Source: a virus
Direction: 5' to 3' (one strand)
Length of the DNA stretch: 23,099 nt
Virus record (IMG/VR): IMGVR_UViG_3300037558_002226
Location: 1-23,099 of that record
Shown one piece after another: positions 12 to 14,290 of this stretch. The position numbers and the translations under genes were made by a program. The stretch's first letter is position 1. Every line of letters starts with the position of its first letter. The notes beneath the pieces are model-generated. The model was not told where the DNA came from. It was given only the letters and a program-made list of their open reading frames with translations, and did no database searches.

Positions 12-19
12 TATAAATA
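12..19 (+). promoter_or_regulatory. T4-type late promoter box (TATAAATA)
   Basis: This is an exact match to the T4 late promoter -10 element, which is recognised by the gp55 sigma factor encoded in this window. It ends 5 bases before the ATG at 25. By T4 spacing (box at about -13 to -6) transcription would start at or next to the A of that ATG, which would give a leaderless mRNA. Confidence 0.75.
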
Positions 20-24
20 AAAAT

Positions 25-441
25 ATGGCTATTTCACGTTCATCTTCATTCACAGTCCCAGCGATTTCTCAAAAAACTTTTGATTCCGTCTGGGTTCGTA
101 ATATTAATATCCACTGCCCACAGCTGGACGCTGAAGGCAATAATGGTGGTCAAATACATATTGAGTTGGTTCCTTATGATGACACAGAAGGGGCAGAGGC
201 TATTCATTTAAGTTTGGATAATGAAGGGGTTGAGTATTTAAATGTTGATGGTATGCACAACCAAGAGAAAACCTTTTGGAAGTGTGTTAACGATGTTCCT
301 GAAGTAGCTAAAGCTATGGAGGCTATTGTTTCTGCTGTTTCTCCATTAAAGACTTGGATTGAAACTGTCCCTGAAGTTGAGGCGAGAGAGGTTGAAGGAG
401 CTGCCGCTGAAGAGACTTCTGAAGAAGAATCTGAGGAATAA
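25..441 (+). CDS. Hypothetical late protein with acidic C-terminal tail
   Basis: A 138-residue protein that I do not recognise. The N-terminal 80 residues look beta-rich and soluble, and I see no signal peptide or membrane segment. Residues of about 85-115 look helical. The last 25 residues are dominated by Glu and Ser and end EETSEEESEE. The start is the ATG at 25: there is no other Met until about residue 77, and a late promoter box ends 5 bases upstream. The late promoter and the position just before neck gene 13 suggest a virion or assembly protein, but that is inference from context only. An acidic tail also occurs on the products at 509-694 and 20864-21142 and on the portal protein. Confidence 0.8.
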   Translation: MAISRSSSFTVPAISQKTFDSVWVRNINIHCPQLDAEGNNGGQIHIELVPYDDTEGAEAIHLSLDNEGVEYLNVDGMHNQEKTFWKCVNDVPEVAKAMEAIVSAVSPLKTWIETVPEVEAREVEGAAAEETSEEESEE

Positions 442-447
442 GAATTA

Positions 448-455
448 TATAAATA
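448..455 (+). promoter_or_regulatory. T4-type late promoter box (TATAAATA)
   Basis: An exact TATAAATA a few bases past the stop codon at 439-441. The predicted start of transcription is near 461, giving a leader of about 48 bases before the ATG at 509. Unlike most late boxes in this window it is not fused to a start codon. Confidence 0.65.
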
Positions 456-460
456 AATTC

Positions 461-489
461 TGAACAGCACATGACGTGTGTTATATAAT
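461..489 (+). promoter_or_regulatory. Possible weak sigma70-type promoter
   Basis: TATAAT at 484-489 is preceded, after 17 bases, by TGAACA at 461-466. This matches 4 of 6 bases of the TTTACA -35 element used elsewhere in the window. The start would fall near 496, about 13 bases before the ATG at 509. It would be a second promoter for the small gene that follows, but an AT-rich region can produce this by chance. Confidence 0.3.
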
Positions 490-508
490 TAAAACACTAT
501 TAAAAATT

Positions 509-694
509 ATGAATGAAATTAAACTATCATTACAGGAAAACGAGGTGCAGGCGCTTTTTCATCTTATCGACTTAGCAGTTAAATCACAAGGCCTTAAGGT
601 TGCTGAAGCCGCTACTGTTATTGTCAATAAGCTTCAAGAGCAAGCTAAAGACCAATTGACTCCTGTTGAAGAGGAAGAAGAGACTAAGAAATAA
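509..694 (+). CDS. Small helical protein with acidic C-terminus
   Basis: A 61-residue protein, probably two helices (about residues 5-20 and 26-45, with GLKVAEAATVIVNKLQ in the second), followed by a charged tail VEEEEETKK. I chose the ATG at 509. An in-frame GTG at 476 would add 11 residues with no support. The helical core has the same pattern as the 92-residue product at 20864-21142: a beginning like LSLQ/ISFN, then IDL, a short turn with a Gly, and an amphipathic second helix. Both end in Glu-rich tails, so the two may be distant paralogues. Function unknown. It may have both late and host-type promoters. Confidence 0.7.
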   Translation: MNEIKLSLQENEVQALFHLIDLAVKSQGLKVAEAATVIVNKLQEQAKDQLTPVEEEEETKK

Positions 695-704
695 CCTATT
701 ATAG

Positions 705-739
705 TTAAGGGGTGTTTCAGAATAAACACTTAATGTTTT
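705..739 (+). terminator. Possible weak terminator hairpin before gene 13
   Basis: TTAA at 705-708 and GTGTTT at 712-717 pair with AAACAC at 724-729 and TTAA at 730-733, leaving a GGG bulge and a 6-base loop. The following T-rich stretch (TGTTTT) is short. It lies between the stop at 694 and the gene 13 late promoter, the same arrangement as the two strong terminators in the window, but it is weaker. Confidence 0.35.
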
Positions 740-762
740 GTCAATCGCTATTCTTAAAATAG

Positions 763-770
763 TATAAATA
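763..770 (+). promoter_or_regulatory. T4-type late promoter box for gene 13
   Basis: An exact TATAAATA, ending 6 bases before the gene 13 ATG at 777. By T4 geometry the predicted start is at about 776, so the leader would be about 1 base. It probably drives the 13-14-15-16-17 run. Confidence 0.75.
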
Positions 771-776
771 GACTAT

Positions 777-1535
777 ATGGCTATACCAAATACAAGACAA
801 AAACTTATCGATTATTGCTTGAGGGCATTAGGCCATCCTGTTATCGAAATCAACGTTGATGATGATCAAATTGAAGATCGCGTTGATGAAGCAATTCAAT
901 TTTATCAGGAATTTCATAGCGATGCAGTAGTGCGTAATCTTCTTAAGCATCAAGTGACTCAAACTGATATCGATAATGGGTATATTTCTCTGGCAGCTGG
1001 AGCAAATATCTTGTCGATTAATAATGTATTTAATATAAGCAATAGTAATTCTGGAACATCCCTTTTTTCTGTTGACTACCAGTTGCATATGAATGACATA
1101 TTAGATATGAATGGTTCATTTGGTGGTATTGTTAACTATGAGTTAACTAAACAGTATCTTTCGTTAATCGATCGAAACGTTAATGGTGTTTACGAAATGA
1201 TCCAATATAGTCGGCATAAAAGCAGAGTAAACTTTCATACAGATACGCTAAAAGATCTTGGAGTAGGAAATTATGTTGTGTTTGATGGATATAGTTCAGT
1301 CGATCCAGAAACATTTGTTGGAGTATACAACGACATGTTTCTTAAAAAGTATGCGACTGCTCTTGTTAAACGGCAATGGGGATTAAACCTTATTAAATTT
1401 GAAGGTATGGTTTTGCCAGGTGGTGTTACGATGAATGGCCGTGCTATTTACGATGATGCTATTACTGATCTCGAAAAGCTTGAAGAAAAGATTCGTCTTG
1501 AACACGAATTACCACCACTAGATTTTATAGGATAA
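777..1535 (+). CDS. 13: Neck protein gp13
   Basis: A 252-residue homologue of T4 gp13 (about 309 residues in T4), a head completion protein that with gp14 forms the neck joining the DNA-filled head to the tail. The recognisable N-terminus is MAIPNTRQKLIDYCLRALG, followed by an acidic stretch (INVDDDQIEDRVDEAI) and FYQEFHSDA, a pattern typical of this family. The C-terminal half contains the conserved Lys/Trp-rich segment around YATALVKRQWGLNLIKF and a helical end. It is followed after one base by gene 14 and heads the 13-14-15-16-17 run. The start is fixed by the adjacent late promoter and by homology. Confidence 0.92.
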   Translation: MAIPNTRQKLIDYCLRALGHPVIEINVDDDQIEDRVDEAIQFYQEFHSDAVVRNLLKHQVTQTDIDNGYISLAAGANILSINNVFNISNSNSGTSLFSVDYQLHMNDILDMNGSFGGIVNYELTKQYLSLIDRNVNGVYEMIQYSRHKSRVNFHTDTLKDLGVGNYVVFDGYSSVDPETFVGVYNDMFLKKYATALVKRQWGLNLIKFEGMVLPGGVTMNGRAIYDDAITDLEKLEEKIRLEHELPPLDFIG

Positions 1536-1536
1536 G

Positions 1537-2439
1537 ATGCCAAGGAATGTATATTTTAGTCAAGGAGCAACTTCTGAACAGAGGCTCTATGAAGACATTA
1601 CTATAGAGGCTCTTAAGATTTATGGTCATGACGTTTTCTATATTCCTAGGAGTATTGTAAACACAGATTCTATATTTAACGAAGATGCGTTGTCTAAATT
1701 TGGTGAAGCGTTTCAGATTGAAATGTACGTTGAAAACACTGATGGCTTTGGTGGAGAAGGTGATCTTCTTTCAAAGTTTGGTGTAGAAATAAGGGATAGT
1801 GTAAATCTTATTGTATCAGATAGGAGATGGCAACAGTTAGTTTCGCGTTTCCAAGATCCTGTAGAGGTTCGGCCTCAAGAAGGAGATTTGATATTCTTTC
1901 CTCTTGTTAATGGTTTATTCGAGATTAATTATGTTGAAGATGAGACTCCTTTTTATCAGCTACAAAACATTCCTACGTTTAAACTTTCTTGTCAGCAGTT
2001 TGAGTACAACAACCAAGAGATTGATACTGGAGTTGCAGAGGTAGATAAATTTGAGTTGAATTTCGCAACACGCACACGCTTGAACTTAGGAAGTGGTAGT
2101 GGTACATTTGCTGTTGGTGAAGATGCTAAACAAACTGACAGCACAACTACGATTACTGGAGAAGTTGCTGCTGTTGGAACTAACTATATTGATGTTGTTA
2201 ATCAAAGGGCTAGTGACAATAGCAATAAGGGATTTGTTAAGACTGCAGGAAGCTGGGGAAACGTGACAGGATCAGAAAACTCGCCTAATCCTTCTTATGC
2301 AATTACATCAATTGATTCTTTTAGCACAATTGATGACAATGATCCTTACGCGGACAATACAGATTTTGAAACAGAAGGCAATTCATTTATTGATTTTACT
2401 AAGAGCAATCCATTTGGAATGCCAAATATAATAACCTAA
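1537..2439 (+). CDS. 14: Neck protein gp14
   Basis: A 300-residue homologue of T4 gp14, which assembles with gp13 into the head-tail connector neck. The N-terminus is family-typical: MPRNVYFSQGATSEQRLYED followed by a hydrophobic YGHDVFYIPR segment. T4 gp14 is about 256 residues. The extra length seems to lie in a low-complexity Gly/Ser/Thr/Asn-rich region at about residues 185-265, before a conserved-looking C-terminus that ends in an NPFGMPNIIT-like tail. The gene starts 1 base after the gene 13 stop with a modest AGGA Shine-Dalgarno, consistent with translational coupling, and gene 15 follows 3 bases after its stop. Confidence 0.9.
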   Translation: MPRNVYFSQGATSEQRLYEDITIEALKIYGHDVFYIPRSIVNTDSIFNEDALSKFGEAFQIEMYVENTDGFGGEGDLLSKFGVEIRDSVNLIVSDRRWQQLVSRFQDPVEVRPQEGDLIFFPLVNGLFEINYVEDETPFYQLQNIPTFKLSCQQFEYNNQEIDTGVAEVDKFELNFATRTRLNLGSGSGTFAVGEDAKQTDSTTTITGEVAAVGTNYIDVVNQRASDNSNKGFVKTAGSWGNVTGSENSPNPSYAITSIDSFSTIDDNDPYADNTDFETEGNSFIDFTKSNPFGMPNIIT

Positions 2440-2442
2440 GAT

Positions 2443-3225
2443 ATGTTAAGCGGAACACACTTTTACAATAAAACAGTACGCAAGTCCGTGGCTGTCTTTG
2501 GCACTCTGTTTAATAACATTAAAATTTTAAGGCCAGGAGCTACAGAAGAAAAAGTTCCTGTCGCATACGGACCAAGGAAAAAGTTTTTGGCTCGCATTCA
2601 ATCTGATACATCAGGTTCAACCGCAGAAACAATAGCGATTAAACTCCCGCGAATAAGTTTTGAAATAACTTCGATGGAGTATGATAACGAAAGTAAGTTA
2701 AGCCGCTTTAATAAAAAGTTTATTCCTATTGAAGGAGATAAGAATAATGTTAATACACTATATCAAAGTGTTCCTTATATTATAGGAATGCAACTAAATG
2801 TATATGCCCTTAATCAAGATGAAGCATTACAAATAGTAGAACAAATTTTACCTACTTTTTCTCCCGAATATACTGTAAGCATAAAAGACCTTGAAGGAGC
2901 TAACACAACGACTGATGTTCCTATTATATTGAACTCTCTTTCTCTTAACGATGATTACGAAGGTGATTTTGAAACTAGGAGAACTATCTTATACACTCTT
3001 GATTTTAGCATGAAAGTAAAGTTTGCTGGCGGAGTTAATAAACAGGGACTAATAAGAACTGTCGATACATTCTTATTTGATGATGTCAACACTGCTTTAA
3101 AAACAACTAATCCGTATGGTGTTAATAATGAAAATATTCGGGTTGCAGTAGCAAACAGTGACAGTGCTCCTTTGGACGACACTGATACTATAACAACCAC
3201 ATTTGGTTTTGATCATGGATCGTGA
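2443..3225 (+). CDS. 15: Tail sheath stabiliser / tail terminator gp15
   Basis: A 260-residue homologue of T4 gp15 (about 272 residues). In T4, gp15 forms a hexameric ring at the top of the tail that caps the sheath and docks to the neck. The family signature is at the N-terminus (MLSGTHFYNKTVRKSVAVFG, then LFNNIKILRP), with conserved features such as VPVAYGPRKKFLARI at about residues 38-52 and ITSMEYDNESKLSR near 82. The C-terminal 40 residues are polar and look flexible. The 3' end overlaps the start of gene 16 by 11 bases, consistent with coupled translation. Confidence 0.93.
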   Translation: MLSGTHFYNKTVRKSVAVFGTLFNNIKILRPGATEEKVPVAYGPRKKFLARIQSDTSGSTAETIAIKLPRISFEITSMEYDNESKLSRFNKKFIPIEGDKNNVNTLYQSVPYIIGMQLNVYALNQDEALQIVEQILPTFSPEYTVSIKDLEGANTTTDVPIILNSLSLNDDYEGDFETRRTILYTLDFSMKVKFAGGVNKQGLIRTVDTFLFDDVNTALKTTNPYGVNNENIRVAVANSDSAPLDDTDTITTTFGFDHGS

Positions 3226-3634
3226 AGATGAAAATAGTGAAGACGCTGAAGAAAAGCTCGAAATAACGGAAATACCACAAATAGAAGTTTCTAGTTCTCA
3301 AATAGTAAACGACACAGAGACTGATATCGAGTATTCTCGAGACAAGATGAAGTCTTTAATCGATCAATCTTGTGAAGCTATAAATCACATGATGGCACTT
3401 GCTTCAGATTCAGAGCATCCTAGAGCTTTTGAAGTTTTGTCTACAATGATAAAACATACGAGTGAGATGTCACAAGATCTTGTTAAATTGCAAAAGACAC
3501 GGAAAGATATTACACAGGAAAAAAGTGGTCCTTCAAGTACAACGACAAACAATTCTATCTTCGTTGGATCAACTACAGAGTTACAAAAATATCTTAAAAA
3601 GAATAAAGACAGCGATGAATCTATAGATGTCTGA
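3215..3634 (+). CDS. 16: Small terminase subunit gp16
   Basis: A 139-residue small terminase candidate (T4 gp16 is about 164). In T4 this protein forms rings that regulate the packaging ATPase gp17. The sequence has an acidic N-terminus (residues 1-35, many Glu and Asp), a helical central region (about 45-105, including SLIDQSCEAINHMMALASDSEHPRAFEVL) that fits the helical core of the family, and a Ser/Thr/Asn-rich, then Lys-rich, C-terminus. I chose the ATG at 3215; an in-frame TTG at 3203 lacks support. It overlaps gp15 by 11 bases and gp17 by 8. The identification leans on the helical pattern and the invariant position next to gene 17. Confidence 0.85.
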   Translation: MDREDENSEDAEEKLEITEIPQIEVSSSQIVNDTETDIEYSRDKMKSLIDQSCEAINHMMALASDSEHPRAFEVLSTMIKHTSEMSQDLVKLQKTRKDITQEKSGPSSTTTNNSIFVGSTTELQKYLKKNKDSDESIDV

Positions 3635-5222
3635 TAGTTTAATAAATGGTAATGGCGGTTACATGGGTAATCCGCTTGTGAGAAAGGATGGTTTACAAAC
3701 AGCATTTTCAGCTGACGAAGTTGAAGAGTATGTTAAATGTACGAATGATCCTATATATTTTGCTGAAGAATACGTAAAGGTTATATCACTTGATGACGGA
3801 TTAGTGGCATTTAAACCTTATGAGTATCAGAAGAAGATGTTCAAACAGTTTAATGACAATCGCTTTAATATAGTTCTTGCATGTCGACAATCAGGAAAAT
3901 CTATTTCATCAGTGATCTATATTCTATGGTATGTTCTTTTTAATTCCGAAAAGACTGTTACTATACTTGCGAACAAAGGGTCTACCGCGAGGGAAATGCT
4001 AAGCCGCATTACTCTTGCACTTGAGAATCTTCCATTTTTCTTACAACCAGGGTGCAAAGCTCTTAATAAAGGATCCATTGAGTTTTCGAACAATTCAAAG
4101 ATTATCGCTGCAGCTACATCAGCTAGTTCTATTCGAGGCCTTTCGGTAAACCTTCTTTTCCTTGATGAGTTTGCTTTTGTTGAGAATGCTAGTGAATTTT
4201 ATACTTCAACTTACCCCGTGGTTTCTGCAGGTAAAGAAACAAAGGTTATTATTACATCTACTGCTAACGGTATTGGAAACATATTTTGTGGATTATGGGA
4301 AGGTGCACAGAAAAAGAAGAACGAATTTACACCATTTAGAGTAGATTGGTGGGATGTTCCTGGGCGAGATGAGGTATGGAAAGCAATGACTATTGCTAAT
4401 ACATCAGAACTTCAGTTTGATCAAGAGTTTGGTAACAGCTTTATTGGAACGTCAAATACTCTTATTTCATCTAATACTCTTTTAGGTTTACAAATGCATT
4501 CTCCTGAAAGAAATCATAGAGGCGTAAAATATTACGAAGATCCTCAGGAAGATCATCAATATGTAATGACAGTTGATGTTTCAAAAGGTCGAGGACAAGA
4601 TTATTCGACTATTACTGTTATAGATTCGACATTTGGAAAATTTAGACAAGTTGCTACATATAGAGATAACATGATATCTCCTATGATTTTTGGAGATATT
4701 ATTGTAAGAGTAGCAAGAGAATATAACGAAGCTTTAGTTATTATTGAAAATAACGATGCGGGAATGGTTGTATGTAACGATGTTTATTATGAGCATGAAT
4801 ATGAAAATATGTTTGTGGAGTCGAGTGTCCGTAAGAATGGCATTGGTGTGATGATGACAAAACGTATTAAGCGGATTGGCTGCTCAAACCTGAAAGATTT
4901 AATAGAATTAGGTAAGCTTAATATTATTGACGAACACACAATATTGGAGCTTTCAACGTTTGAGGTAAAGGGAAGTTCTTATGAAGCTAGTTCTGGTAAC
5001 CATGACGACTTAGTAATGAATTTAGTTATGTTCGCTTGGTTTGTATCATCGGAAGCATTTGGTGATATATCAACAGTTGATTTAAAAGAAATGTTATTCA
5101 AAGAAAAGATGGAGCAGATTGAAAATGATGTTCCGCCATTTGGTGTTATAAGCAATTCTGCAGATACTGGGAATAAACACGAAGAATTAGTTAACGAAGT
5201 TAAAGCGTGGCACGATTTGTAA
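3627..5222 (+). CDS. 17: Large terminase subunit gp17 (packaging ATPase and nuclease)
   Basis: The 531-residue motor that cuts concatemeric DNA and pumps it through the portal (T4 gp17 is about 610). The N-terminal ATPase domain has Walker A CRQSGKS (residues 86-92), Walker B LLFLDE with catalytic Glu (176-181) and a coupling motif TSTANG (210-215). The C-terminal RNase H-fold nuclease has the three acidic positions expected: Asp317 in VDVSKG, Glu374 in IIENND and Asp461 in NHDD, matching T4 D401, E458 and D542. All key residues are intact, so it should be active. The start codon at 3627 overlaps the end of gene 16, again suggesting coupling. After its stop comes the late promoter and leader of gene 18. 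Confidence 0.97.
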   Translation: MSDSLINGNGGYMGNPLVRKDGLQTAFSADEVEEYVKCTNDPIYFAEEYVKVISLDDGLVAFKPYEYQKKMFKQFNDNRFNIVLACRQSGKSISSVIYILWYVLFNSEKTVTILANKGSTAREMLSRITLALENLPFFLQPGCKALNKGSIEFSNNSKIIAAATSASSIRGLSVNLLFLDEFAFVENASEFYTSTYPVVSAGKETKVIITSTANGIGNIFCGLWEGAQKKKNEFTPFRVDWWDVPGRDEVWKAMTIANTSELQFDQEFGNSFIGTSNTLISSNTLLGLQMHSPERNHRGVKYYEDPQEDHQYVMTVDVSKGRGQDYSTITVIDSTFGKFRQVATYRDNMISPMIFGDIIVRVAREYNEALVIIENNDAGMVVCNDVYYEHEYENMFVESSVRKNGIGVMMTKRIKRIGCSNLKDLIELGKLNIIDEHTILELSTFEVKGSSYEASSGNHDDLVMNLVMFAWFVSSEAFGDISTVDLKEMLFKEKMEQIENDVPPFGVISNSADTGNKHEELVNEVKAWHDL

Positions 5223-5233
5223 ACTCATTGTTG

Positions 5234-5241
5234 TATAAATA
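5234..5241 (+). promoter_or_regulatory. T4-type late promoter box for gene 18
   Basis: An exact TATAAATA just after the gene 17 stop. The predicted start is near 5247, giving a leader of about 58 bases before the sheath gene ATG at 5305. This is the longest late leader in the window apart from none comparable, and it contains a 22-codon upstream reading frame and the conserved 18-base start-site element. Confidence 0.75.
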
Positions 5242-5263
5242 GAATTATTGAAACTATCTTGTA

Positions 5264-5332
5264 ATGAACAAACTTATTAATAACACATTGAAAGAAAAAC
5301 TATTATGGCATTTCAGGTATCACCCGGAGTAG
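5264..5332 (+). other. Short upstream reading frame in the gene 18 leader
   Basis: ATG at 5264 opens a 22-codon frame (MNKLINNTLKEKLLWHFRYH..., stop TAG at 5330-5332) that overlaps the first 28 bases of gene 18 in another frame. It has no evident Shine-Dalgarno. It could be a regulatory leader peptide or chance. Nothing in the peptide is recognisable. Confidence 0.25.
5290..5307 (+). promoter_or_regulatory. Shared 18-base start-site element, copy 1 (gene 18)
   Basis: GAAAGAAAAACTATTATG, ending in the gene 18 ATG. The same 18 bases occur at the starts of gene 19 (7088-7105) and gene 23 (12020-12037) and I saw them nowhere else. GAAAG could serve as a weak Shine-Dalgarno, and the A-rich run could bind ribosomal protein S1. 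It marks the three most abundantly needed virion proteins. Confidence 0.7.
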
Positions 5333-7074
5333 AGGTCAAGGAAATAGACTTGACAAATGTGATCCCCGCAGTATCGACATCGATCGGTGCATTCGCAGGT
5401 CACTTCAGCTGGGGTCCTGTAGGAGAAGTAAAATTGGTATCTTCTGAGAAGGAACTAATTAATGAATACGGAGCTCCGGTGGATACAACCACTGGTGGTC
5501 AGTACGATAACTATACTTCATTTCTACAGGCCGCAAGCTTTTTAAAATATAGCAATACACTTCGTATTTCACGAGCGTGTCCAGACACCGCAAGAAACGC
5601 GGCTGGATCTCGACATGGTGCGGACACAACAGTAAAACTAATCAACAATGACGAGGCCTTTGCTGGAATAACTTTTGACGGGACTAAACCCGGTGTTGTT
5701 CAAGCTCGTTGTCCAGGAACTGCAGGCAATAGCCTACAGACTAAATTTGCGATTAATATTGTTAACACAGGCAGTTTCGGCGACACTACTCTAGATAACA
5801 GTGTTAGTTCTGCAGCTTCAACAACTGCTTGGGCTGCTGCTAATGTAGCTTCTGATGCTCTAGACGAAATTCATATCGCCATTATTGACGAAGATGGAGT
5901 CTTTAGTGGTGTTAAAGGCACAATCCTAGAAATCTATGAAGGCCTTTCGTTGTACTCGGATGCTGTTAAAGATGGTGGTTCAAACTATTATAAAACAGTT
6001 ATAAACCGCGATTCTAAATATGTGTTTATTAATGAAGCTGCATTTGCTGCAGAGTTTACTGGTACTACACATGCATCTCCTGGAAATGCTGGTTCAAGCG
6101 GTAAAAAGTTTAATGCCAGTAACATTGCATCTACCTCCGCGGGAAACACCGCGTTTCATTTCTCTTTGGTTAAGGGCGTTGACGGAACAAATGCGGCGGC
6201 CGCTTCAAATGCGGCAAACGTTACAGCAGCTTTAACTCAGTTTGAAAACCCAGAAGCAATTGATATTAATCTTTTGTTTGCTGAAGTAGACGCGGACGGT
6301 TTGACTGTTATTGGTGACAAGATTGTTGATATATGCGGTACAAAACGTAAAGATTGTGTTGGATTTATTTCACCACACACATCAGCAAATAGTGCAGCAA
6401 CTGTTAAAGCTGATTTTGATTATAACGATTCTTATGTTGTTCTCGATTCCTCTGCAGTTTATGTGTATAATAAGTATAATGATACTTTCCGTTATATTCC
6501 TGCAAACGGCCACATCGCTGGACTTTGCGCGAGGACTGATGATACTAACGATCCATGGTTCTCACCAGCTGGTTACAACCGCGGAAATCTTCTTGGAGTA
6601 ACTAAGCTTAAGTGGAACCCAACTAAATCAGATAGAGACACGCTTTATAAAGCAGGTATTAACCCAATTATTTCAGAGCCTGGTCAAGGAATTCTGTTAT
6701 TTGGCGATAAGACTGCACAGAGTAAACCATCCGCCTTTGATCGTATTAACGTTCGTAGGTTGTTCGTGGTTCTTGAAAAAGCAATCTCTACAGCATCTAA
6801 ATTCCAACTCTTTGAGCTCAACGATGAGTTTACGAGAGCAATGTTCAGGAACATGACCGAACCATTCCTCAGGGATGTTAAAGGAAGACGCGGTATTACT
6901 GATTTTCTAGTTGTTTGTGACGAAACAAATAACACAGGAACAGTGATTGACGCTAATCGGTTTGTTGCAGATATTTACATTAAGCCTGCTCGTTCAATCA
7001 ACTTCATTACTTTGAATTTTGTTGCAACAAGAACAGGTGTTGAATTCTCTGAGATCGTTGGAACTGGTAACTAA
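5305..7074 (+). CDS. 18: Contractile tail sheath protein gp18
   Basis: A 589-residue tail sheath protein (T4 gp18 is about 659) that polymerises around the tube and contracts to drive it through the host envelope. The N-terminus has the typical sheath signature SPGVEVKEIDLTN, followed by TSIGAFAGHFSWGPVGEV. The C-terminus carries the conserved core: a DKTAQSKPSAFDRINVRRLF segment near residue 470, FEPN-like LFELNDEFTRAMFRNM near 500, and a final IYIKPARSINFITLNFVATR strand (about 555-575). The middle (about 100-330) is Ala/Ser/Gly/Asn-rich and probably forms the surface domains that vary between phages. The gene is preceded by the shared 18-base start-site element and followed directly by gene 19. 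Confidence 0.96.
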   Translation: MAFQVSPGVEVKEIDLTNVIPAVSTSIGAFAGHFSWGPVGEVKLVSSEKELINEYGAPVDTTTGGQYDNYTSFLQAASFLKYSNTLRISRACPDTARNAAGSRHGADTTVKLINNDEAFAGITFDGTKPGVVQARCPGTAGNSLQTKFAINIVNTGSFGDTTLDNSVSSAASTTAWAAANVASDALDEIHIAIIDEDGVFSGVKGTILEIYEGLSLYSDAVKDGGSNYYKTVINRDSKYVFINEAAFAAEFTGTTHASPGNAGSSGKKFNASNIASTSAGNTAFHFSLVKGVDGTNAAAASNAANVTAALTQFENPEAIDINLLFAEVDADGLTVIGDKIVDICGTKRKDCVGFISPHTSANSAATVKADFDYNDSYVVLDSSAVYVYNKYNDTFRYIPANGHIAGLCARTDDTNDPWFSPAGYNRGNLLGVTKLKWNPTKSDRDTLYKAGINPIISEPGQGILLFGDKTAQSKPSAFDRINVRRLFVVLEKAISTASKFQLFELNDEFTRAMFRNMTEPFLRDVKGRRGITDFLVVCDETNNTGTVIDANRFVADIYIKPARSINFITLNFVATRTGVEFSEIVGTGN

Positions 7075-7080
7075 TAAATA
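7073..7080 (+). promoter_or_regulatory. Near-consensus late promoter box for gene 19 (AATAAATA)
   Basis: It differs from TATAAATA at one base and overlaps the gene 18 stop codon. The predicted start is near 7086, giving a leader of about 17 bases that begins right at the conserved start-site element. It could allow gene 19 to be made in excess of gene 18. Confidence 0.5.
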
Positions 7081-7087: not shown

Positions 7088-7105
7088 GAAAGAAAAACTA
7101 TTATG
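7088..7105 (+). promoter_or_regulatory. Shared 18-base start-site element, copy 2 (gene 19)
   Basis: The same GAAAGAAAAACTATTATG as at genes 18 and 23, ending in the gene 19 ATG. Here almost the whole predicted leader consists of this element. Confidence 0.7.
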
Positions 7106-7632: not shown

Positions 7633-7664
7633 AACTAGGGAGGTCCAAACCCTCCCTAGTTTTT
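7633..7664 (+). terminator. Rho-independent terminator after gene 19
   Basis: AACTAGGGAGG (7633-7643) pairs perfectly with CCTCCCTAGTT (7651-7661) around a 7-base loop, and the T-run extends to 7664. It is a textbook terminator. The gene 20 late promoter begins 2 bases after the T-run. Confidence 0.9.
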
Positions 7665-7666
7665 AT

Positions 7667-7674
7667 TATAAATA
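7667..7674 (+). promoter_or_regulatory. T4-type late promoter box for gene 20
   Basis: An exact TATAAATA placed directly behind the terminator and ending 7 bases before the portal gene ATG at 7682. The predicted start is near 7680, giving a leader of about 2 bases. Confidence 0.75.
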
Positions 7675-7681: not shown

Positions 7682-9193
7682 ATGGCGATAAATTTATTTG
7701 GATTTGAAATTAGTAAAAAAGTTTCACCACAGAATAGTGTTGAAGCGATCTCACCTATACCTAAGCCGACCGATGAGTCTTCATCAACGGTGGCAGTTGG
7801 AGGCGGCTACTACGGCCAATACGTAGATCTTTCAAATACCGACACGGTTTCTGACCACGAATTAATTCGTAAATACCGTGAAACCGCAATGCAGCCTGAG
7901 TGTGATGCGGCTGTCTCTGACATTGTTGATAGCGCGATTGCATCATCAGATCAATCTTCTCCGGTTGATTTATCTATGAGTGATTTAGACTTACCTAACA
8001 ATGTAAAGAAACAAATAATTAAAGAGTTTAACCGTGTGCTAAAACTCTACAAGTTTAATAGAAATGCCTCAGAGTATTTTCGTAATTGGTATGTCGATGG
8101 TAAATCGTATTTTAATGTAATTATTGATCCCAATAATCCTCAGAAAGGTATTATAGAACTTCGGCCAGTTGAATCGACACACATCAATAAAGTCAGGGAA
8201 GTAAAACAAGAAACTGACTCAAAGACAGGATTGGAATATGAAAAGGTTGTAGACGAATATTACGTGTATTCTCCTGATCTTGGAAATAATGCTGTTGATA
8301 AATTAAATGGGATTAAGTTTGCTAATGATGCTATTATCCAAGTTAATTCTGGAATAATGGATCCTGATAAGATCCGAACAGTTGGCCACCTTCATAAAGC
8401 AATGAAGCTAGCTAATCAGCTTCGCTATATGGAAGATTCTTTGGTTGTATATCGTGTTTCACGCGCACCAGAAAGAAGAATCTTTTATATTGATGTTGGT
8501 AACCTTCCAAAAGGTAAGGCCGAAGAATACGTTCAGCAAGTTGTTTCTCGTTATAGAAATAAGCTTGTGTATGATGCAAATACTGGAAATATTAGCGATG
8601 ATCGTAGACATATGTCAATGCTTGAGGATTTTTATCTCCCTAGACGAGAGGGAGGAAGAGGAACCGAGATTACTACACTTGGTGGTGGAGAAAACTTGGG
8701 TCAGATTGAAGACGTACAGTTTTTCCAACGTAAGCTGTACCGAGCACTTAACGTTCCTGTTGCAAGGTTAGAACAGGATAACGCTTTTAGTGTCGGCCGT
8801 GCAAGTGAAGTTTCAAGAGAAGAAGTTAAATTCCAAAAGTTTATCGATCGTTTAAGGAAGAAGTTTTCTTTCATGTTAATGGATGCTTTGAGAATACAGC
8901 TCATCCTTAAAGGTGTTATTACCGAAAAAGATTGGGGCGACATCGAAGAATCTATTAACATTAGCTTCCTTGAAGATAACTATTTTGCTGAATTAAAGGA
9001 ATTTGAAATCCTTAGAGAACGTTTAGAAATGTCACAGATGCTCGAAGATATTGTTGGTAAATATATCTCTGACAAGTACGTGCGTACAGTTATACTTAAA
9101 CAATCAGATGAAGATATTATGCGTTTAGACGCAGAAATTGAAGAAGAAGGTTCAGGAGATGAAGGTGATGAATTTGAAGATGAAGATATTTAA
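7682..9193 (+). CDS. 20: Portal vertex protein gp20
   Basis: A 503-residue portal protein (T4 gp20 is about 524). It forms the dodecameric ring at one capsid vertex that nucleates head assembly, channels DNA and binds the terminase and neck. Recognisable blocks are YVDLSNTDTVSDHELIRKYRE (about residues 46-66), AVSDIVDSAI, YFRNWYVDGKSYFNVIID, ELRPVESTHI, VYRVSRAPERRIFYIDVGNLPKGKAEEYV (about 257-285), and GRGTEITTLGGGENLGQIEDVQFF near 325. These are all hallmarks of the T4 portal family. The last 20 residues are very acidic (many Glu, Gly and Asp), perhaps a flexible tail. MAINLFGFEI is a plausible native N-terminus, and there is no room for a ribosome-binding site after the predicted transcription start. 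Confidence 0.97.
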   Translation: MAINLFGFEISKKVSPQNSVEAISPIPKPTDESSSTVAVGGGYYGQYVDLSNTDTVSDHELIRKYRETAMQPECDAAVSDIVDSAIASSDQSSPVDLSMSDLDLPNNVKKQIIKEFNRVLKLYKFNRNASEYFRNWYVDGKSYFNVIIDPNNPQKGIIELRPVESTHINKVREVKQETDSKTGLEYEKVVDEYYVYSPDLGNNAVDKLNGIKFANDAIIQVNSGIMDPDKIRTVGHLHKAMKLANQLRYMEDSLVVYRVSRAPERRIFYIDVGNLPKGKAEEYVQQVVSRYRNKLVYDANTGNISDDRRHMSMLEDFYLPRREGGRGTEITTLGGGENLGQIEDVQFFQRKLYRALNVPVARLEQDNAFSVGRASEVSREEVKFQKFIDRLRKKFSFMLMDALRIQLILKGVITEKDWGDIEESINISFLEDNYFAELKEFEILRERLEMSQMLEDIVGKYISDKYVRTVILKQSDEDIMRLDAEIEEEGSGDEGDEFEDEDI

Positions 9194-9212
9194 ATCTCTA
9201 AAACAAAAAAAT

Positions 9213-9220
9213 TATAAATA
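9213..9220 (+). promoter_or_regulatory. T4-type late promoter box
   Basis: An exact TATAAATA ending 8 bases before the ATG at 9229. The predicted start is near 9226, giving a leader of about 3 bases. It probably drives the head assembly run from 9229 to gene 22. Confidence 0.75.
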
Positions 9221-9228
9221 GTATTAAT

Positions 9229-9636
9229 ATGAGTGATATTGCTAAAGAATTATTTAAAAGTATTGTTACTAATACAGCTTCGCAGGAAGATTTTAGTAGC
9301 GCAATAAAACAAAAGATGGATCAAGCTGTGGATGTTCGTAAAGCCGGTATTACCGCAGGAATTTATAACCAGCAATCTACAAGCTCTGAAACTTTCGAAG
9401 AATCAGTTGAAGAAGAAATTAACGAAGCTTCTAGCGGAGACATTGCTAAGCTTTTGAAATTTATAGCTAAAAACGGTGCAAAAGTTAAAGGCAGTGTTGC
9501 AGATTTTGGCGGCTCTAAAATTGAGTTTAGTTTTGACAAAGGTAAAATTAAGTTTGATGGAGGTAAAGATTCTGTAGAATACTTTGACAATCTTCGTGAT
9601 GCTATCTCTGCGCTATCAATAGGGATGGAAGACTAA
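9229..9636 (+). CDS. Candidate prohead core / internal head protein
   Basis: A 135-residue protein between portal and protease genes, the place where T4 carries core genes 67 and 68. Residues 1-48 form a helical, charged segment (IAKELFKSIV, then MDQAVDVRKAGITAGIYNQQ) of the kind I associate with prohead core proteins of T4-like phages. Residues 55-66 are Glu-rich and contain INE before Ala-Ser, which fits the gp21 protease consensus (Leu/Ile-x-Glu, then a small residue). The rest is a small Gly/Lys-rich, probably beta-rich domain (KGSVADFGGSKIEFSFDKGK) with a helical end. I infer that gp21 removes the N-terminal part during head maturation and that the C-terminal domain could stay inside the head. 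The resemblance to gp67/gp68 is positional and pattern-based, not demonstrated. Confidence 0.5.
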   Translation: MSDIAKELFKSIVTNTASQEDFSSAIKQKMDQAVDVRKAGITAGIYNQQSTSSETFEESVEEEINEASSGDIAKLLKFIAKNGAKVKGSVADFGGSKIEFSFDKGKIKFDGGKDSVEYFDNLRDAISALSIGMED

Positions 9637-9652
9637 ACACAATAATAAAAAA

Positions 9653-9940
9653 ATGAAAATTGAACCATTAACAGTAGCAGCAGCTGCATCGCTTACTGCT
9701 GGAGCATCAAATGTAAGTGAAGCTCAACAAGTACTAGTACAAAATATTGGTACTGCTGCAGCATACGTACATATAGAAACAGGAACAACCGGAACGCGCT
9801 ATGCTTCATTTTATGTTCCAACTAAAAGTAACATCATAGTTCGTAAAGCCATCGCGGACCAAATTTTCGCATCCACTGCAGCCGCAGGAACTGGTGCAAA
9901 TACTAACGTCCTATTTACTAAGCTAGGTTTTTACGGATAA
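9653..9940 (+). CDS. Small beta-rich head-region protein, possible decoration protein
   Basis: A 95-residue protein that I cannot assign to a named family. The N-terminus is Ala/Thr-rich (VAAAASLTAGASNVSEAQQ), then come alternating strands: VLVQNIGTAAAYVHIETG, RYASFYVPTKSNIIVRKA, QIFASTAAAGT and a final VLFTKLGFYG. This looks like a compact beta sandwich of the sort seen in accessory capsid or fibre proteins. It lies between the candidate core gene and the protease gene within the late head module, 16 bases after one stop and 5 before gene 21. A role on or in the virion head is inference from context. No Shine-Dalgarno is evident before the ATG. Confidence 0.75.
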   Translation: MKIEPLTVAAAASLTAGASNVSEAQQVLVQNIGTAAAYVHIETGTTGTRYASFYVPTKSNIIVRKAIADQIFASTAAAGTGANTNVLFTKLGFYG

Positions 9941-9945
9941 AAGCT

Positions 9946-10590: not shown

Positions 10591-10606
10591 ATTAAAACAA
10601 GAAAAT

Positions 10607-12001
10607 ATGTCAGAAGAAAACCAAATTATAGAAGACGTAGAGGAAAAGGACCTTGTTGAGAATCAGGAGCTTGTGCAGGATAATCCTGAAGAAGTTGCTG
10701 AGGATACAAGTCAAACTTTAACTCAAGCCGTCGTAGACGCACTTCTAGGCGAAGCCAAGAAGAATGAATCCGAAGAAGAGTCAGATGACGATTCTAAAGA
10801 TGATGAAGAAGAAATGGAAGAAGCTAAAGCCAAGACAGAAGAAGAGTCAGAAGACGATTCAGAAGAAGTGGAAGAAGCTAAAGCCAAGACAGAAGAAGAA
10901 GATCCCGAGGAAGAGGAAGAAGAATCTGCTGAAGAAGATGAAGAGGTAGAAGAATCTGCCGACGACTCTGATGAAGTAGAAGAAGTTAGCCTTCCAGGTG
11001 TTAAAACTAAAGCAGGTTATCTTGCTGCAAGTTTTGATGCTCTTAAGGGCATGAAGAAATCACAACTCGTTAGTGCTTATAAAGGTATTAATGTGAGTGA
11101 AGATGAAGGTGAAGTAGAAGTGCCAAAGACAAAGGCAGATATTATCAACGCAATGTATGGTCAACTTAAGGCTATGAAAAAGGATCAATTGACTGCCTCT
11201 TATAAGGCTATTCAAGATTCTTGCGGTGGTATGCATGAGGAACTTGAGACTGAAAGCTATGCTGAAGATCTTAAAGTTCTTGCCGACTCTGAACAGGAAT
11301 TGACCGAAGGCTTTAAAGCTAAGGTTGCTACTCTGTTTGAAGGTGCTATTGCAAACCGTGTTGTCGAGATCAAAGAATCTCTTGAAGCTCAATATGAGAA
11401 CGATCTTCAAGAAGAAGTAGGCTACATTCGTGAGTCTCTCGTCACTAAGATTGATGATTATCTTTCTTATGTGGTAGAAACTTGGATCGAAGAAAACCAG
11501 GAGTTTGTTGATAACAAGCTTCGCACTGACATCACAGAAAACTTCATGAAAGCTCTTCAAGGTGTTTTCACAGAACACTACATCGAAGTACCTGATTCTA
11601 AGGTTGATCTTGTTGATCAACTTTCAGAGGAAGTTGCTTCTGTTAAAGAATCCCTCGTAGATGTTGAGGAAAAGAATGTTACTCTTGCTGAAGAACTTGA
11701 AAGTCTTCATCGGGAAAAGATTCTTTCTGAGGCTACTACTGATTTGGCTTCCACGCAAGTCGCTAAACTCTCTTCTCTTATTGAAGAAGTTGACTTTGTA
11801 GATGCAGATACATTTGCATCTAAGGTAGCTGTAATTAAAGAAGGATTCTTCTCAGATTCTGATTCGAAAGAAGAAGAAGTCATTACTGAATCAACTGATT
11901 CAACTAACGTAAAAACAATCGTCGAGGGAGAAATTGATCCTAATAGCAAGTTGTCTGGTGACATGCAACGCTATATTTCAACTCTTTCTCGCTTCAAATA
12001 A
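10607..12001 (+). CDS. 22: Prohead core scaffold protein gp22 with enlarged repeat-bearing N-terminus
   Basis: A 464-residue internal scaffold, far longer than T4 gp22 (about 269). The ATG at 10607 is chosen; an upstream in-frame ATG at 10568 lies inside gene 21. Residues 1-130 are extremely acidic and include an 18-residue tandem repeat (EEAKAKTEEE at about 71-80 and 89-98). Residues 133-161 and 174-202 are two copies of a 29-residue module beginning KTKA and containing LKxMKKxQL, with 15 of 29 identical. From about 215 the sequence is a long Glu/Lys-rich helical region like T4 gp22 (LEAQYENDLQEEVGYIRESL, VESVKESLV-type heptads). It ends MQRYISTLSRFK, a typical end for this family. Several sites fit gp21 cleavage (for example IVE before Gly441). 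It lies immediately upstream of gene 23. Confidence 0.9.
   Translation: MSEENQIIEDVEEKDLVENQELVQDNPEEVAEDTSQTLTQAVVDALLGEAKKNESEEESDDDSKDDEEEMEEAKAKTEEESEDDSEEVEEAKAKTEEEDPEEEEEESAEEDEEVEESADDSDEVEEVSLPGVKTKAGYLAASFDALKGMKKSQLVSAYKGINVSEDEGEVEVPKTKADIINAMYGQLKAMKKDQLTASYKAIQDSCGGMHEELETESYAEDLKVLADSEQELTEGFKAKVATLFEGAIANRVVEIKESLEAQYENDLQEEVGYIRESLVTKIDDYLSYVVETWIEENQEFVDNKLRTDITENFMKALQGVFTEHYIEVPDSKVDLVDQLSEEVASVKESLVDVEEKNVTLAEELESLHREKILSEATTDLASTQVAKLSSLIEEVDFVDADTFASKVAVIKEGFFSDSDSKEEEVITESTDSTNVKTIVEGEIDPNSKLSGDMQRYISTLSRFK
10815..10899 (+). repeat. Tandem 54-base repeat within gene 22
   Basis: A perfect 31-base match occurs at 10815-10845 and 10869-10899, a period of 54 bases or 18 codons, coding for EEAKAKTEE within the acidic tract. 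Identity at the DNA level in a coding region suggests a recent duplication. It is in frame and leaves the gene intact. Confidence 0.9.
11993..12000 (+). promoter_or_regulatory. Possible degenerate late promoter box for gene 23 (TTCAAATA)
   Basis: It matches TATAAATA at 6 of 8 positions and overlaps the gene 22 stop codon. It would give a leader of about 29 bases that contains the shared start-site element. In T4, gene 23 has its own strong late promoter, so one is expected here, but this match is weak. Confidence 0.25.
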
Positions 12002-12019
12002 CCCAACCAAACAACAAAA

Positions 12020-12037
12020 GAAAGAAAAACTATTATG
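12020..12037 (+). promoter_or_regulatory. Shared 18-base start-site element, copy 3 (gene 23)
   Basis: GAAAGAAAAACTATTATG ending in the major capsid gene ATG, identical to the copies at genes 18 and 19. The bases further upstream are also A-rich (ACAACAAAA), as before gene 19. Confidence 0.7.
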
Positions 12038-13285
12038 CTAAACGCAGAAAAAGAACTACAAAAATGGGCTCCCGTGCTTGAGCACGCTGACGCTCCCGCT
12101 ATCACTGATAGCTATAAGAAGGCTGTTACAGCCAAACTACTCGAGAACACTGAAGTTGCACTCCGTGAGGAGTCTGCCGCATCTTCATTCGGTGTTTTAA
12201 GCGAGGGACAGACCCAAACGTCTGCTGCTGTTAACCCTGATCCAGTGCTTATCTCATTGGTTCGCCGTGCAATGCCTAACCTCATCGCTTATGATGTCGC
12301 TGGTGTCCAGCCTATGTCTGGTCCTACTGGTCTCATCTTCGCAATGAAGGCTCGTGTTGGTCACGCTTCAAATGCAATCGCGACGTCTGATGCTGAAGCA
12401 CTCTTCAATGAGGCTGACACAGACTTCTCTGGTGCTGGTACACAGAGCGCTAAGGGACTCTTTGATTCCCCTGCTACTATCACTACAGGAACTGGTATCA
12501 CTACAGCTACTGGTGAAGCTTCCTCTTCGCTTGCGAATATGGGTTTCACTATCGAAAAGTCGACTGTTACTGCTAAGACTCGTCAGCTCAAAGCTGAGTA
12601 CACCATGGAGCTTGCTCAAGACCTCAAAGCTGTTCACGGCCTTGATGCTGAGTCTGAGCTTGCTAACATCCTTTCCGGTGAGATCCTTGCGGAAATCAAC
12701 CGTGAGGTTATCCGTAACATCGTTGTTACTGGTAAGGAAGCTGGTATTGGTGTTAAACACGAGTTTGACCTTAAGACACAAGCCGACGGCCGTTGGGCTG
12801 TTGAGAAATTCCAGTCATTGATCTTCCAGATCGAGAAGGAAGCCAACCAAATTGCATTAGAAACACGTCGTGGTAAGGGTAACTTCGTTATCTGCTCAAG
12901 CAACGTTGCTTCTGCACTTGCTGCTGGTGGTCAACTTAAGTTTGGCGGAGAAGGTGAAATTGCTGTTGATGCTGCTGGTAATACATTTGCTGGTACACTC
13001 AATGGAAGCCTGAAAGTGTATGTTGACCCATATGCTACATCTGACTACGCCACTGTTGGTTATAAGGGAACTTCCCCATATGACGCTGGTGTGTTCTACT
13101 GCCCGTACGTTCCTCTTACTATGGTTCGTGCTGTTGGAGAGAACAACTTCCAGCCGAAGATTGCATTTAAGACACGTTACGGTCTTGTTGCTAACCCAAT
13201 GGTTACACTTAATGGTCTTGGTGCTGCTAATAGTAACCCATACTTCCGTACATTCCGCGTTAAGAACATTAACACACTTGTTTAA
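12035..13285 (+). CDS. 23: Major capsid protein gp23
   Basis: A 416-residue major capsid protein with an HK97-type fold (T4 gp23 is about 521, so this one lacks much of the T4 insertion). Family blocks are VNPDPVLISLVRRAMPNLIAYDVAGVQPMSGPTGLIFAMK (about residues 66-106), TVTAKTRQLKAEYTMELAQDLKAVHGLDAESELANILSGEI (about 178-218), GNFVICSSNVASAL and YKGTSPYDAGVFYCPYVPLTM. An N-terminal propeptide is likely: LSE at 55-57 before Gly58 fits the gp21 consensus, and in T4 the first 65 residues are removed. Codons ending in C (ATC, AAC, TTC) are much more common here than in neighbouring genes, which fits very high expression. A strong terminator follows. Confidence 0.97.
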   Translation: MLNAEKELQKWAPVLEHADAPAITDSYKKAVTAKLLENTEVALREESAASSFGVLSEGQTQTSAAVNPDPVLISLVRRAMPNLIAYDVAGVQPMSGPTGLIFAMKARVGHASNAIATSDAEALFNEADTDFSGAGTQSAKGLFDSPATITTGTGITTATGEASSSLANMGFTIEKSTVTAKTRQLKAEYTMELAQDLKAVHGLDAESELANILSGEILAEINREVIRNIVVTGKEAGIGVKHEFDLKTQADGRWAVEKFQSLIFQIEKEANQIALETRRGKGNFVICSSNVASALAAGGQLKFGGEGEIAVDAAGNTFAGTLNGSLKVYVDPYATSDYATVGYKGTSPYDAGVFYCPYVPLTMVRAVGENNFQPKIAFKTRYGLVANPMVTLNGLGAANSNPYFRTFRVKNINTLV

Positions 13286-13310
13286 TACGGCGGTTTAAAA
13301 ACCTAAATTT

Positions 13311-13342
13311 AAGAGGGTCCTTGAAAGAGGGCCCTCTTTTTT
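13311..13342 (+). terminator. Rho-independent terminator after gene 23
   Basis: AAGAGGGTCC (13311-13320) pairs with GGGCCCTCTT (13329-13338), one G-U pair, around an 8-base loop, and a T-run follows to 13342. The next late promoter box starts 2 bases later, as after gene 19. Confidence 0.9.
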
Positions 13343-13343
13343 G

Positions 13344-13351
13344 TATAAATA
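13344..13351 (+). promoter_or_regulatory. T4-type late promoter box
   Basis: An exact TATAAATA directly behind the gene 23 terminator. It ends 5 bases before the ATG at 13357, so by T4 spacing the first transcribed base would be the A of the ATG. Confidence 0.75.
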
Positions 13352-13356
13352 CATGT

Positions 13357-13824
13357 ATGGCTCAGAATAATTTAACATCTAACACGAATCTTCTTTCTCC
13401 TGTTGGTTTTAAACTTACAATTAATCGGCAGAAGTATGCTAATACCGAGTACTTTATAACGAACTTTGGTATACCTGAGATTAGTGCTGGTGAAGTTCAA
13501 ATGAATTTTAGAGGAGGGATTTCATATCAAACAAGCGAGACTCGTCAATTTGGAGGATTGAGTTTAAGGTTCGCTATTGACGAAGATATGAAGAACTATA
13601 CAGAAATATATAATTGGATGAAGGATAATACTGAAAAGTATGAAGTTGCTGATATGATTCTTTCAGTTATGTCTAGTCATAATACTGTGAATAAACAATT
13701 TCAATTTAAGAATGCCTTTCCTACTTCTTTAAGCGGTGTAGATTTTAACGTACAGTCAAACGATGTAGAATATGCACAGGCTGATGTTGCCTTTAGATAC
13801 GACGAATTCCTAATCATAAAATAG
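13357..13824 (+). CDS. Tail tube-like protein (gp19 paralogue)
   Basis: A 155-residue protein with the gp19 tube pattern: PVGFKLTINR near residue 16 aligns with the ANLFKATIAF segment of gp19. FITNFGIPEISAGEVQMNFRGG aligns with its FMCKSAQLPASVVGQIDVPYRGR. The end, QFQFKNAFPTSLSGVDFNVQS then YAQADVAFRYDEF, aligns with TYTFRSAWPVNVSSIEVS and EFTVEFAYQYWE. It is therefore likely another ring of the tail, such as a tube initiator at the baseplate (a gp54-like role) or a tube end protein. Gene 3 (tail completion) is an alternative suggested by position after gene 23, but the sequence argues for the gp19 family. I chose the ATG at 13357; an ATG at 13353 is out of frame. It has its own late promoter. 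Confidence 0.75.
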   Translation: MAQNNLTSNTNLLSPVGFKLTINRQKYANTEYFITNFGIPEISAGEVQMNFRGGISYQTSETRQFGGLSLRFAIDEDMKNYTEIYNWMKDNTEKYEVADMILSVMSSHNTVNKQFQFKNAFPTSLSGVDFNVQSNDVEYAQADVAFRYDEFLIIK

Positions 13825-13825
13825 T

Positions 13826-13833
13826 AATAAATA
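13826..13833 (+). promoter_or_regulatory. Near-consensus late promoter box for uvsY (AATAAATA)
   Basis: One mismatch to TATAAATA, located just after the stop at 13822-13824 and 7 bases before the uvsY ATG at 13841. The predicted leader is about 2 bases. UvsY is usually needed before late times, so this box may add late expression. Confidence 0.5.
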
Positions 13834-13840
13834 ATACTAT

Positions 13841-14290
13841 ATGATGAATTTGAATGATATTTTAATGATGTGGAAAAAGGATGCTGTTATTGATGACGTA
13901 TGCCTTGATGACGAGACGCTTAAATCTTCCAAATTGCACGCAAAATACCTAGAGCTTTTTTCTATGTCAAAACTAATGCTTAAGAAAAAAGAAATGGAGT
14001 ATGTATCTATGAAAAAAGATAAGTGGCTTTACTACAATGGAAAGATGACTAAAGATGATATGGATAAGAACAAATGGAAATATGATCCATTTGATGGCAT
14101 GTCTAAGCCTATGAAGTCTGATATGGATATGTACTATTCAACTGACAAAGATCTTGTAAAAATAAAAGCACAAATTGATTACCAGAAAACAATTGTTGAA
14201 ACTCTGGAAGAAATCATGGGCAATATTAGATGGCGGCACACCCATGTAAAAAATATATTGGAATTTAAGAAGTTTACTTCTGGCATGTAA
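13841..14290 (+). CDS. uvsY: Recombination mediator UvsY
   Basis: A 149-residue homologue of T4 UvsY (about 137), which loads the UvsX recombinase onto gp32-coated single-stranded DNA during recombination-dependent replication. The family pattern is clear: a start like NLNDILMMWKKDAVIDD, a helix rich in Lys (YLELFSMSKLMLKKKEMEY), KDKWLYYNGKM, KWKYDPFDG, and the C-terminal oligomerisation helix ending KTIVETLEEIMGNIRWRHTHVKNILEFKKFTSG. Two adjacent ATGs (13841 and 13844) are both possible. Its stop overlaps the uvsW start (TAATG), as expected for the conserved uvsY-uvsW pair. Confidence 0.93.
   Translation: MMNLNDILMMWKKDAVIDDVCLDDETLKSSKLHAKYLELFSMSKLMLKKKEMEYVSMKKDKWLYYNGKMTKDDMDKNKWKYDPFDGMSKPMKSDMDMYYSTDKDLVKIKAQIDYQKTIVETLEEIMGNIRWRHTHVKNILEFKKFTSGM

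Follow-up and report, generated by a model that had tools for sequence, protein, structure and literature searches.

Late promoters are placed directly against start codons in a 23,099-base fragment of a T4-like phage (IMG/VR record IMGVR_UViG_3300037558_002226), here called the window, meaning this whole stretch of DNA. The late box TATAAATA occurs eight times in exact form, always on the + strand, where 2.72 occurrences are expected and none of 100 shuffles reaches eight. Five of the eight adjoin an ATG, with 5, 6, 7, 8 and 5 bases between box end and ATG, and a one-letter variant, AATAAATA, stands 7 bases before uvsY. An annotation made earlier from the sequence alone (the first-pass annotation) had listed these six spacings, and all of them are exact. 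In the accessible text of a review of T4 late promoters, the first base of the box is numbered -13 (PMC2988020), and by this numbering the A of an ATG at spacing 5 is the +1 base. Very probably, gp55-type late promoters of this lineage are set so that transcription begins at the A of the ATG, the mRNA is leaderless, and initiation proceeds without a Shine-Dalgarno (SD) sequence.

The spacing was surveyed in the window and 249 related IMG/VR loci, collected by homology to gp13, gp20, uvsY, and the gene at position 25, the gp13 and gp20 sets being the best 80 matches each. ATGs opening at least 80 codons after TATAAATA were counted, contexts at least 85% alike were collapsed, and expected counts were obtained from 55 permuted motifs scaled by occurrence. 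Among the 269 cases within 60 bases, the spacing is bimodal, with a spike at 5 and a hump at 18–38. Spacing 5 alone accounts for 51 cases (2.7 expected), followed by 17, 9, and 5 cases at 6, 7, and 8 (2.7, 2.5, and 2.1 expected), which gives 82 against 10.0 for the pooled class at 5–8, and this class spans 26 protein families. Spacings 0–4 hold four cases, one of them at 4, against 15.3 expected, and spacings 9–17 are near background (23 against 19.2). The hump comprises 119 cases against 40.3 expected, and 41 cases lie beyond 38. The peak at 5–8 bases that the first-pass annotation had anticipated for related phages is thus present.

Genome compaction alone could be thought to generate such a spike, 5 being the least possible distance, with no selection for leaderless translation. 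Phages are compact and a spacing below 5 would no longer give a full AUG, but compaction predicts a smooth fall from the minimum, not background at 9–17 and a second hump at 18–38. The genomes of T4 and KVP40 are also compact, yet they have no close boxes. This explanation is very improbable, and compaction would still yield leaderless mRNA.

A stricter count used 2,329 deduplicated gene-start-like ATGs, taking the first ATG of each frame. TATAAATA precedes 63 of them at spacing 5, where it is the commonest 8-mer, ahead of the SD-like AAGGAAAA with 14, and this number also exceeds the top 8-mer at every other spacing from 0 to 29. The 55 other permutations reach a mean of 0.6 and a maximum of 6 at spacing 5; over 40 spacings none is above 18, and the cell with that value, ATATAAAT at 6, overlaps the box itself. 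Variants of the box beginning with A, C, or G likewise peak at 5 (7, 7, and 4 cases). These counts bear on a second explanation, in which translation occurs mainly from longer read-through mRNAs, independently of SD at an AU-rich site, and the box is a secondary promoter or an AU-rich ribosome-binding stretch. An AU-rich element needs no single 8-mer at one distance, and the excess of 63 over a mean of 0.6 is one reason why we consider this explanation unlikely; further evidence on both of its sides is given with the SD and hairpin data below.

The predicted +1 position is supported by base statistics. The leadered genes, which form an independent set, are informative because no start codon forces a base there. 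The base expected at +1 by T4 numbering, six after the box, is A in 68% of them and G in 16%. Among genes at spacing 5, position -1 holds T in 92% and C in 8% and never a purine (0/51), whereas a purine is found there in 45 of 119 leadered genes (Fisher p 6e-9). The pyrimidine-only -1 agrees with transcription being forced to start at the A of ATG. In the proposed mechanism, gp55-RNA polymerase would open the box and start at this A, in a register set by the box, the 5-base spacer, and the pyrimidine at -1, which would make the A of ATG the first suitable purine. The mRNA would begin with 5'-AUG or with 1–3 extra bases, and ribosomes would start on the terminal AUG without SD pairing. Both the RNA 5' ends at these ATGs and ribosome initiation on the terminal AUG are what we infer from this arrangement.

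The two spacing classes differ in their SD content. A strong SD core precedes 1 of 82 genes at spacing 5–8 vs 70 of 119 at 18–38, while 78 and 14 genes, respectively, have no SD core at all. The start codons themselves are right. Homologues of gp13 with leaders of 18–37 bases begin at the same residue as the close-box homologues (74 of the 80 loci were compared, omitting five that match only from residue 3–5, and L064), and they carry SD-like cores. In HTVC008M, a Pelagibacter phage, the starts after close boxes are the deposited ones in 9 of 9 cases checked, covering 9 of 12, although deposited starts come from gene callers. The first-pass annotation had held that no alternative downstream start fits, and these comparisons agree with it. 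We give almost no credence to the idea that the true starts lie elsewhere and the short spacing is an annotation artefact, even though a second ATG directly follows the first in uvsY and the open reading frame (ORF) of the tail-tube-like gene extends upstream to a TTG at 13321.

The same annotation had stated that none of the close-box genes could have an SD in its own transcript. Their lack of SD is borne out, but it is not specific to them, since the window clade as a whole (uvsY 89% or closer) has no SD signal, with SD-like cores in 7 of 81 genes vs 8 of 81 in a shifted control. SD-less initiation on leadered mRNA therefore probably exists in this clade, which favours read-through. In sets with uvsY identities of 83–88% and 78–84%, SD-like cores are found in 28 and 26 of 110 genes (12 and 7 in the control); a 67–79% set gives 5 vs 6 of 38, and a far gp13 set 117 of 238 vs 16. 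The window seems to belong to a T4-like lineage that abandoned SD. Its gp18, gp19, and gp23 share the leader GAAAGAAAAACTATT (window 5290-5304, 7088-7102, and 12020-12034), which by eye matches GAAAGGAAAAACTATT before gp23 of a relative (L216) with one G missing and the SD core gone, and looks like the SD leader of a relative that has lost its core.

Other phages do use SD. In HTVC008M and the environmental contig G001, SD is used in ~46% of genes, and the close-box genes are mostly without a strong core (2/12 and 0/5), which speaks against read-through as the main source of translation. Across 126 sources, SD use and the share of close boxes are negatively correlated (Spearman -0.58), with a p value that is not trustworthy because overlapping contigs and kin are included. 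SD use is weak in two genomes of SAR11, a possible host type: in 400 kb of each it amounts to 9.9% and 9.7%, compared with shifted-control values of 3.3% and 6.0% (p 0.0005 and 0.08).

Terminator-like hairpins precede the box at gp20 and at the tail-tube-like gene, so read-through is unlikely to supply a leader there. The stem before the tail-tube-like gene is separated from its box by five bases, TTTTG. The stem at gp20 is symmetric, and the general terminator scan listed it for the - strand only; read on the + strand, it stops 3 bases short of the box. Close-box homologues retain the hairpin in 27 of 32 cases for the tail-tube-like gene vs 0.72 in shuffled upstream sequence, and in 22 of 27 for gp20 vs 0.6, with a T-rich tail in 27 and 15, respectively. 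Such hairpins would end most upstream transcripts and leave the late promoter as the main source of mRNA for these two genes. Two further features of these sites were observed: hairpin, late box, and start codon lie within ~45–50 bases (window 7633-7674 and 13311-13351), and hairpin letters have changed in relatives while the hairpin was kept.

Close boxes are common among the fetched IMG/VR relatives and in HTVC008M. Counting exact TATAAATA boxes at 5–8 bases before ORFs of at least 50 codons, none is close in T4 (0/32), KVP40 (0/13), Syn9 (0/9), P-HM2 (0/10), and Pseudoalteromonas phage XG4 (0/45), and DLP6, phiM12, and S-PM2 have none at spacing 5, the only spacing counted for them. T4 late genes keep their leaders, as the first-pass annotation had assumed. 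Its nearest box to an ATG is 13 bases away with an SD in the leader, and its one spacing-5 match (131165-131180, - strand) has no ORF of 50 codons. Close cases were found in C48C1 (1/25), Melnitz (2/25), Mosig (3/30), and HTVC008M (6/21), and in the environmental contigs G001 (5/14), G008 (7/15), and G009 (5/12), which were chosen because they hold close boxes. In a second count, of NATAAATA boxes that have an ORF of 60 codons no more than 45 bases away, HTVC008M has 12 of 18 at 5–8, none at 9–17, and 6 at 18 or more. The close-box genes with deposited starts include those of the neck protein, the DNA end protector, a baseplate wedge subunit, a putative tape measure, and CsgF. Starts of close-box genes in HTVC008M lie, among others, at 6280, 7562, 19456, 31132, 49760, and 59714 on the + strand and at 18916 on the - strand.

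Conservation was followed gene by gene in deduplicated homologues, dropping those without an ATG near the expected start. The tail-tube-like gene, whose distant rows may be gp19 paralogues, is the clearest, with 32 of 47 homologues at 5–8 and 31 at exactly 5 with varying spacer letters; nine are leadered, each having an SD-like core, weak or strong, and six lack a box. For the gene at 9229, 9 of 11 homologues lie at 5–8 and the other two at 11. Among 100 gp20 homologues, 27 are at 5–8, 6 are leadered, 2 are at 9–17, one is at 4, and 64 lack a box, 45 of these having a strong SD. The 100 gp13 homologues divide into 22 at 5–8, one at 9–17, 35 without a box, and 42 leadered, all 42 with a weak or strong SD-like core. 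In quick trees, the box state changes at least 8 times in gp13 (6 forced by well-supported branches) and 5 times in gp20 (3 forced), and the close-box arrangement has been gained or lost several times.

The uvsY gene had been counted in the group with a one-mismatch box, but its spacing is not conserved. It begins ATGATG and most of its boxed relatives have the box 9–12 bases off, which makes it the weakest of the six; among 48 homologues, 5 are at 5–8, 11 at 9–17, one at 4, 2 are leadered, and 29 lack a box. A short SD-less leader is more likely for uvsY. The broader proposal that promoter-proximal late genes are systematically of this type is supported for the close-box class and fails for gp18 and gp19, which keep leaders.

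At least in an unsorted sample, boxes at spacing 4 are not uncommon among viruses in general. In the whole collection, a box 4 bases before TATGGC opens an ORF in 78 of 120 cases among the matches listed, and a box 5 bases before it in 86 of 122. Loci L636-L715 and further ones with TATAAATA 4 bases before TATGGC often lack T4-like matches, and TATAAATA at this distance may represent another type of promoter next to start codons.

Several observations weigh against leaderless initiation at the close boxes. The argument is an inference from DNA, and its rows are related, since deduplication and trees reduce kinship only partly. If +1 is rigid, spacings 6–8 leave 1–3 extra bases before the AUG. 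No hairpin precedes the box at gp13 (0/21) or at the gene at 9229 (0/9), which is in keeping with read-through and makes the argument against it unusable for these two genes, and across the window the general scan finds about as many terminators as chance predicts (9 vs 8.9). Box spacing is poorly conserved at uvsY and at the gene at 25, where a box is found in one of 7 homologues, itself 100% identical to the window gene. Mosig and Melnitz have few close boxes in the second count (7/30 and 3/24), and two of the 12 close-box genes of HTVC008M have an SD-like core upstream. The sigma70 genes of these phages give no parallel, as TATAAT has no peak in the phage loci. A TATAAT peak at 6 bases from ATG (32 cases, with 29 at 0 and 17 at 1) had been seen with ORF-internal ATGs allowed, and it was rejected because it vanished with the first ATG per frame (4 at 6; 19 permutations, mean 1.8, largest 7). 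The two SAR11 genomes (400 kb each) show no clear TATAAT -10 peak at the leaderless distance either.

The proteins of the window are T4-like, and the gene order is that of the T4 late region: gp13, gp14, terminase, gp18, gp19, gp20, prohead genes, and gp23, followed by the tail-tube-like gene, uvsY, uvsW, gp55, gp47/46, gp45, and the clamp loader. The names of gp15-17, gp19, gp21-22, and gp46/47 are ones we presume from gene order. Melnitz (50% in gp20) and HTVC008M (61% in gp23) are among the nearest named phages, and the nearest named relatives infect ocean bacteria. The coordinates of the boxes, hairpins, and genes are collected in the table.

Table. Late boxes, hairpins, and associated genes in the window; spacings are counted from box end to ATG.
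Feature	Position	Strand	Match
Late box TATAAATA, 5 bases before ATG at 25	12..19	+	
Protein of unknown function, 138 aa; predicted leader 0	25..441	+	ORF; no PHROG match
TATAAATA, 53 bases before first in-frame ATG (509) or 20 before GTG (476)	448..455	+	
Late box TATAAATA, 6 bases before gp13	763..770	+	
gp13, head-tail adaptor Ad2; predicted leader 0–1	777..1535	+	phrog_211, E 8.9e-39
Late box TATAAATA, 63 bases before gp18; contrast case with leader	5234..5241	+	
AATAAATA, 22 bases before gp19; contrast case with leader	7073..7080	+	
Terminator-like hairpin, 11 pairs, T-rich bases running into box before gp20	7633..7661	+	
Late box TATAAATA, 7 bases before gp20	7667..7674	+	
gp20, portal protein; predicted leader 0–2	7682..9193	+	phrog_213, E 4.2e-181
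Late box TATAAATA, 8 bases before gene at 9229	9213..9220	+	
Small protein after gp20, in place of T4 gp67/68; predicted leader 0–3	9229..9636	+	ORF; no PHROG match
Intrinsic terminator-like hairpin, 12 pairs, then TTTTG and box of tail-tube-like gene	13311..13338	+	
Late box TATAAATA, 5 bases before tail-tube-like gene	13344..13351	+	
Tail-tube-like protein; predicted leader 0	13357..13824	+	phrog_45, E 6.3e-27
AATAAATA, 7 bases before uvsY and 10 before its second ATG; weak member	13826..13833	+	
uvsY, recombination mediator	13841..14290	+	phrog_231, E 2.3e-34
TATAAATA inside uvsW	15540	+	
gp55-type late sigma factor, expected to recognize the box	16374..16955	+	phrog_234, E 4.6e-51
gp45-type sliding clamp; T4 counterpart activates late transcription	20177..20848	+	phrog_223, E 2.2e-68

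The window thus encodes the gp55-type sigma and the gp45-type clamp, factors that T4 late promoters need. No scanned window protein matched a PHROG family named gp33, the co-activator; a 92-aa ORF at 20864 matches phrog_13789, whose function is unassigned in PHROG. For the ORF after the box at 448, the PHROG profile scan began at 500 and not at the ATG at 509. Sigma70-like matches are at chance level in the window overall (50 found vs 51.8 expected). Of the two best, one (TTTACA-16-TATAAT) lies ahead of the gp55 gene (window 16333-16374) and the other at 16302-16274 on the - strand.

The arrangement resembles T4 late promoters (PMC2988020, accessible text) in having the same 8-base box and the matching sigma and clamp, and the base preference at the sixth base in the leadered relatives of the window fits the same start distance; the difference lies in the close spacing, which none of the 32 TATAAATA boxes of T4 shows. 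Cyanophage and pelagimyophage papers have sought NATAAATA or TATAAAT boxes before late genes, and late-promoter prediction in pelagimyophages was described as unsuccessful (PMC7029224); in the portions of these papers available to us, nothing was found on the distance from box to start codon (PMC3037559, PMC7029224). A full-text literature search, mostly outside subscription papers and covering sources in part, found no report of leaderless T4-like late genes and no study mapping their 5' ends to the start codons.

Leaderless phage mRNAs as such are already known, and the present case would be a well-supported variant of T4-type late expression. According to the available parts of the respective papers, most middle and late mRNAs of the Thermus phage phiYS40 are leaderless (PMC3594737), its host phylum is itself rich in leaderless genes (PMC3160421), and the paper on phage AR9 describes phage transcripts as often leaderless. 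phiYS40 is another kind of phage on another host, and there IF2 rises and IF3 falls (PMC3594737). Cellular genes offer a parallel in geometry: in Deinococcus-Thermus the -10 element adjoins the ORF (PMC12340547), and Pribnow-box leaderless genes have been described (PMC3160421), with the element ~6–7 bases before the start codon giving a leaderless mRNA and the need for this spacing tested experimentally. Those genes use the housekeeping sigma, in contrast to the phage late sigma of the window. Leaderless initiation without SD pairing has also been described (PMC9031893, PMC12340547, accessible portions). In Lactococcus cremoris, mapped leaders are bimodal, either below 5 or ~40 bases with none of 4 to 14 (PMC10986495, accessible portion); that distribution was measured, in a Gram-positive bacterium, whereas the phage spacing distribution is read from DNA.

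A wider scenario, which we regard as doubtful, is that the lineage dropped SD-guided initiation and makes promoter-proximal virion proteins from leaderless mRNA, perhaps matched to altered ribosomes late in infection. A bS21 gene was found in 3 of 33 records searched, the cultured phages HTVC008M, Mosig, and Melnitz (L756, L757, and L758), all with close boxes, and neither in the other 30 records nor in the window. This is an association only, and the absence of bS21 from the window and from three close-box contigs of 45–68 kb, all of them fragments, speaks against the link. In the available text, bS21 is called core to pelagimyophages (PMC7029224), and the bS21 of HTVC008M reportedly becomes part of E. 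coli 70S ribosomes (PMC9723584). If the scenario were true, a single takeover of translation initiation would have phage bS21 as one component and leaderless late mRNA as the other.

Nothing in T4 had suggested searching for such a fusion of promoter and start codon. Late transcription in T4 is textbook material, and T4-like phages abound in the ocean. If leaderless initiation at the close boxes is true, leaderless mRNA would in many T4-like phages be the template for the portal, neck, baseplate, and tail-tube proteins. HTVC008M on Pelagibacter would then be a clean case of promoter placement dictating the mode of translation. The finding would aid the calling of starts and promoters in pelagimyophages, and it would offer a model for leaderless initiation in SD-poor bacteria.

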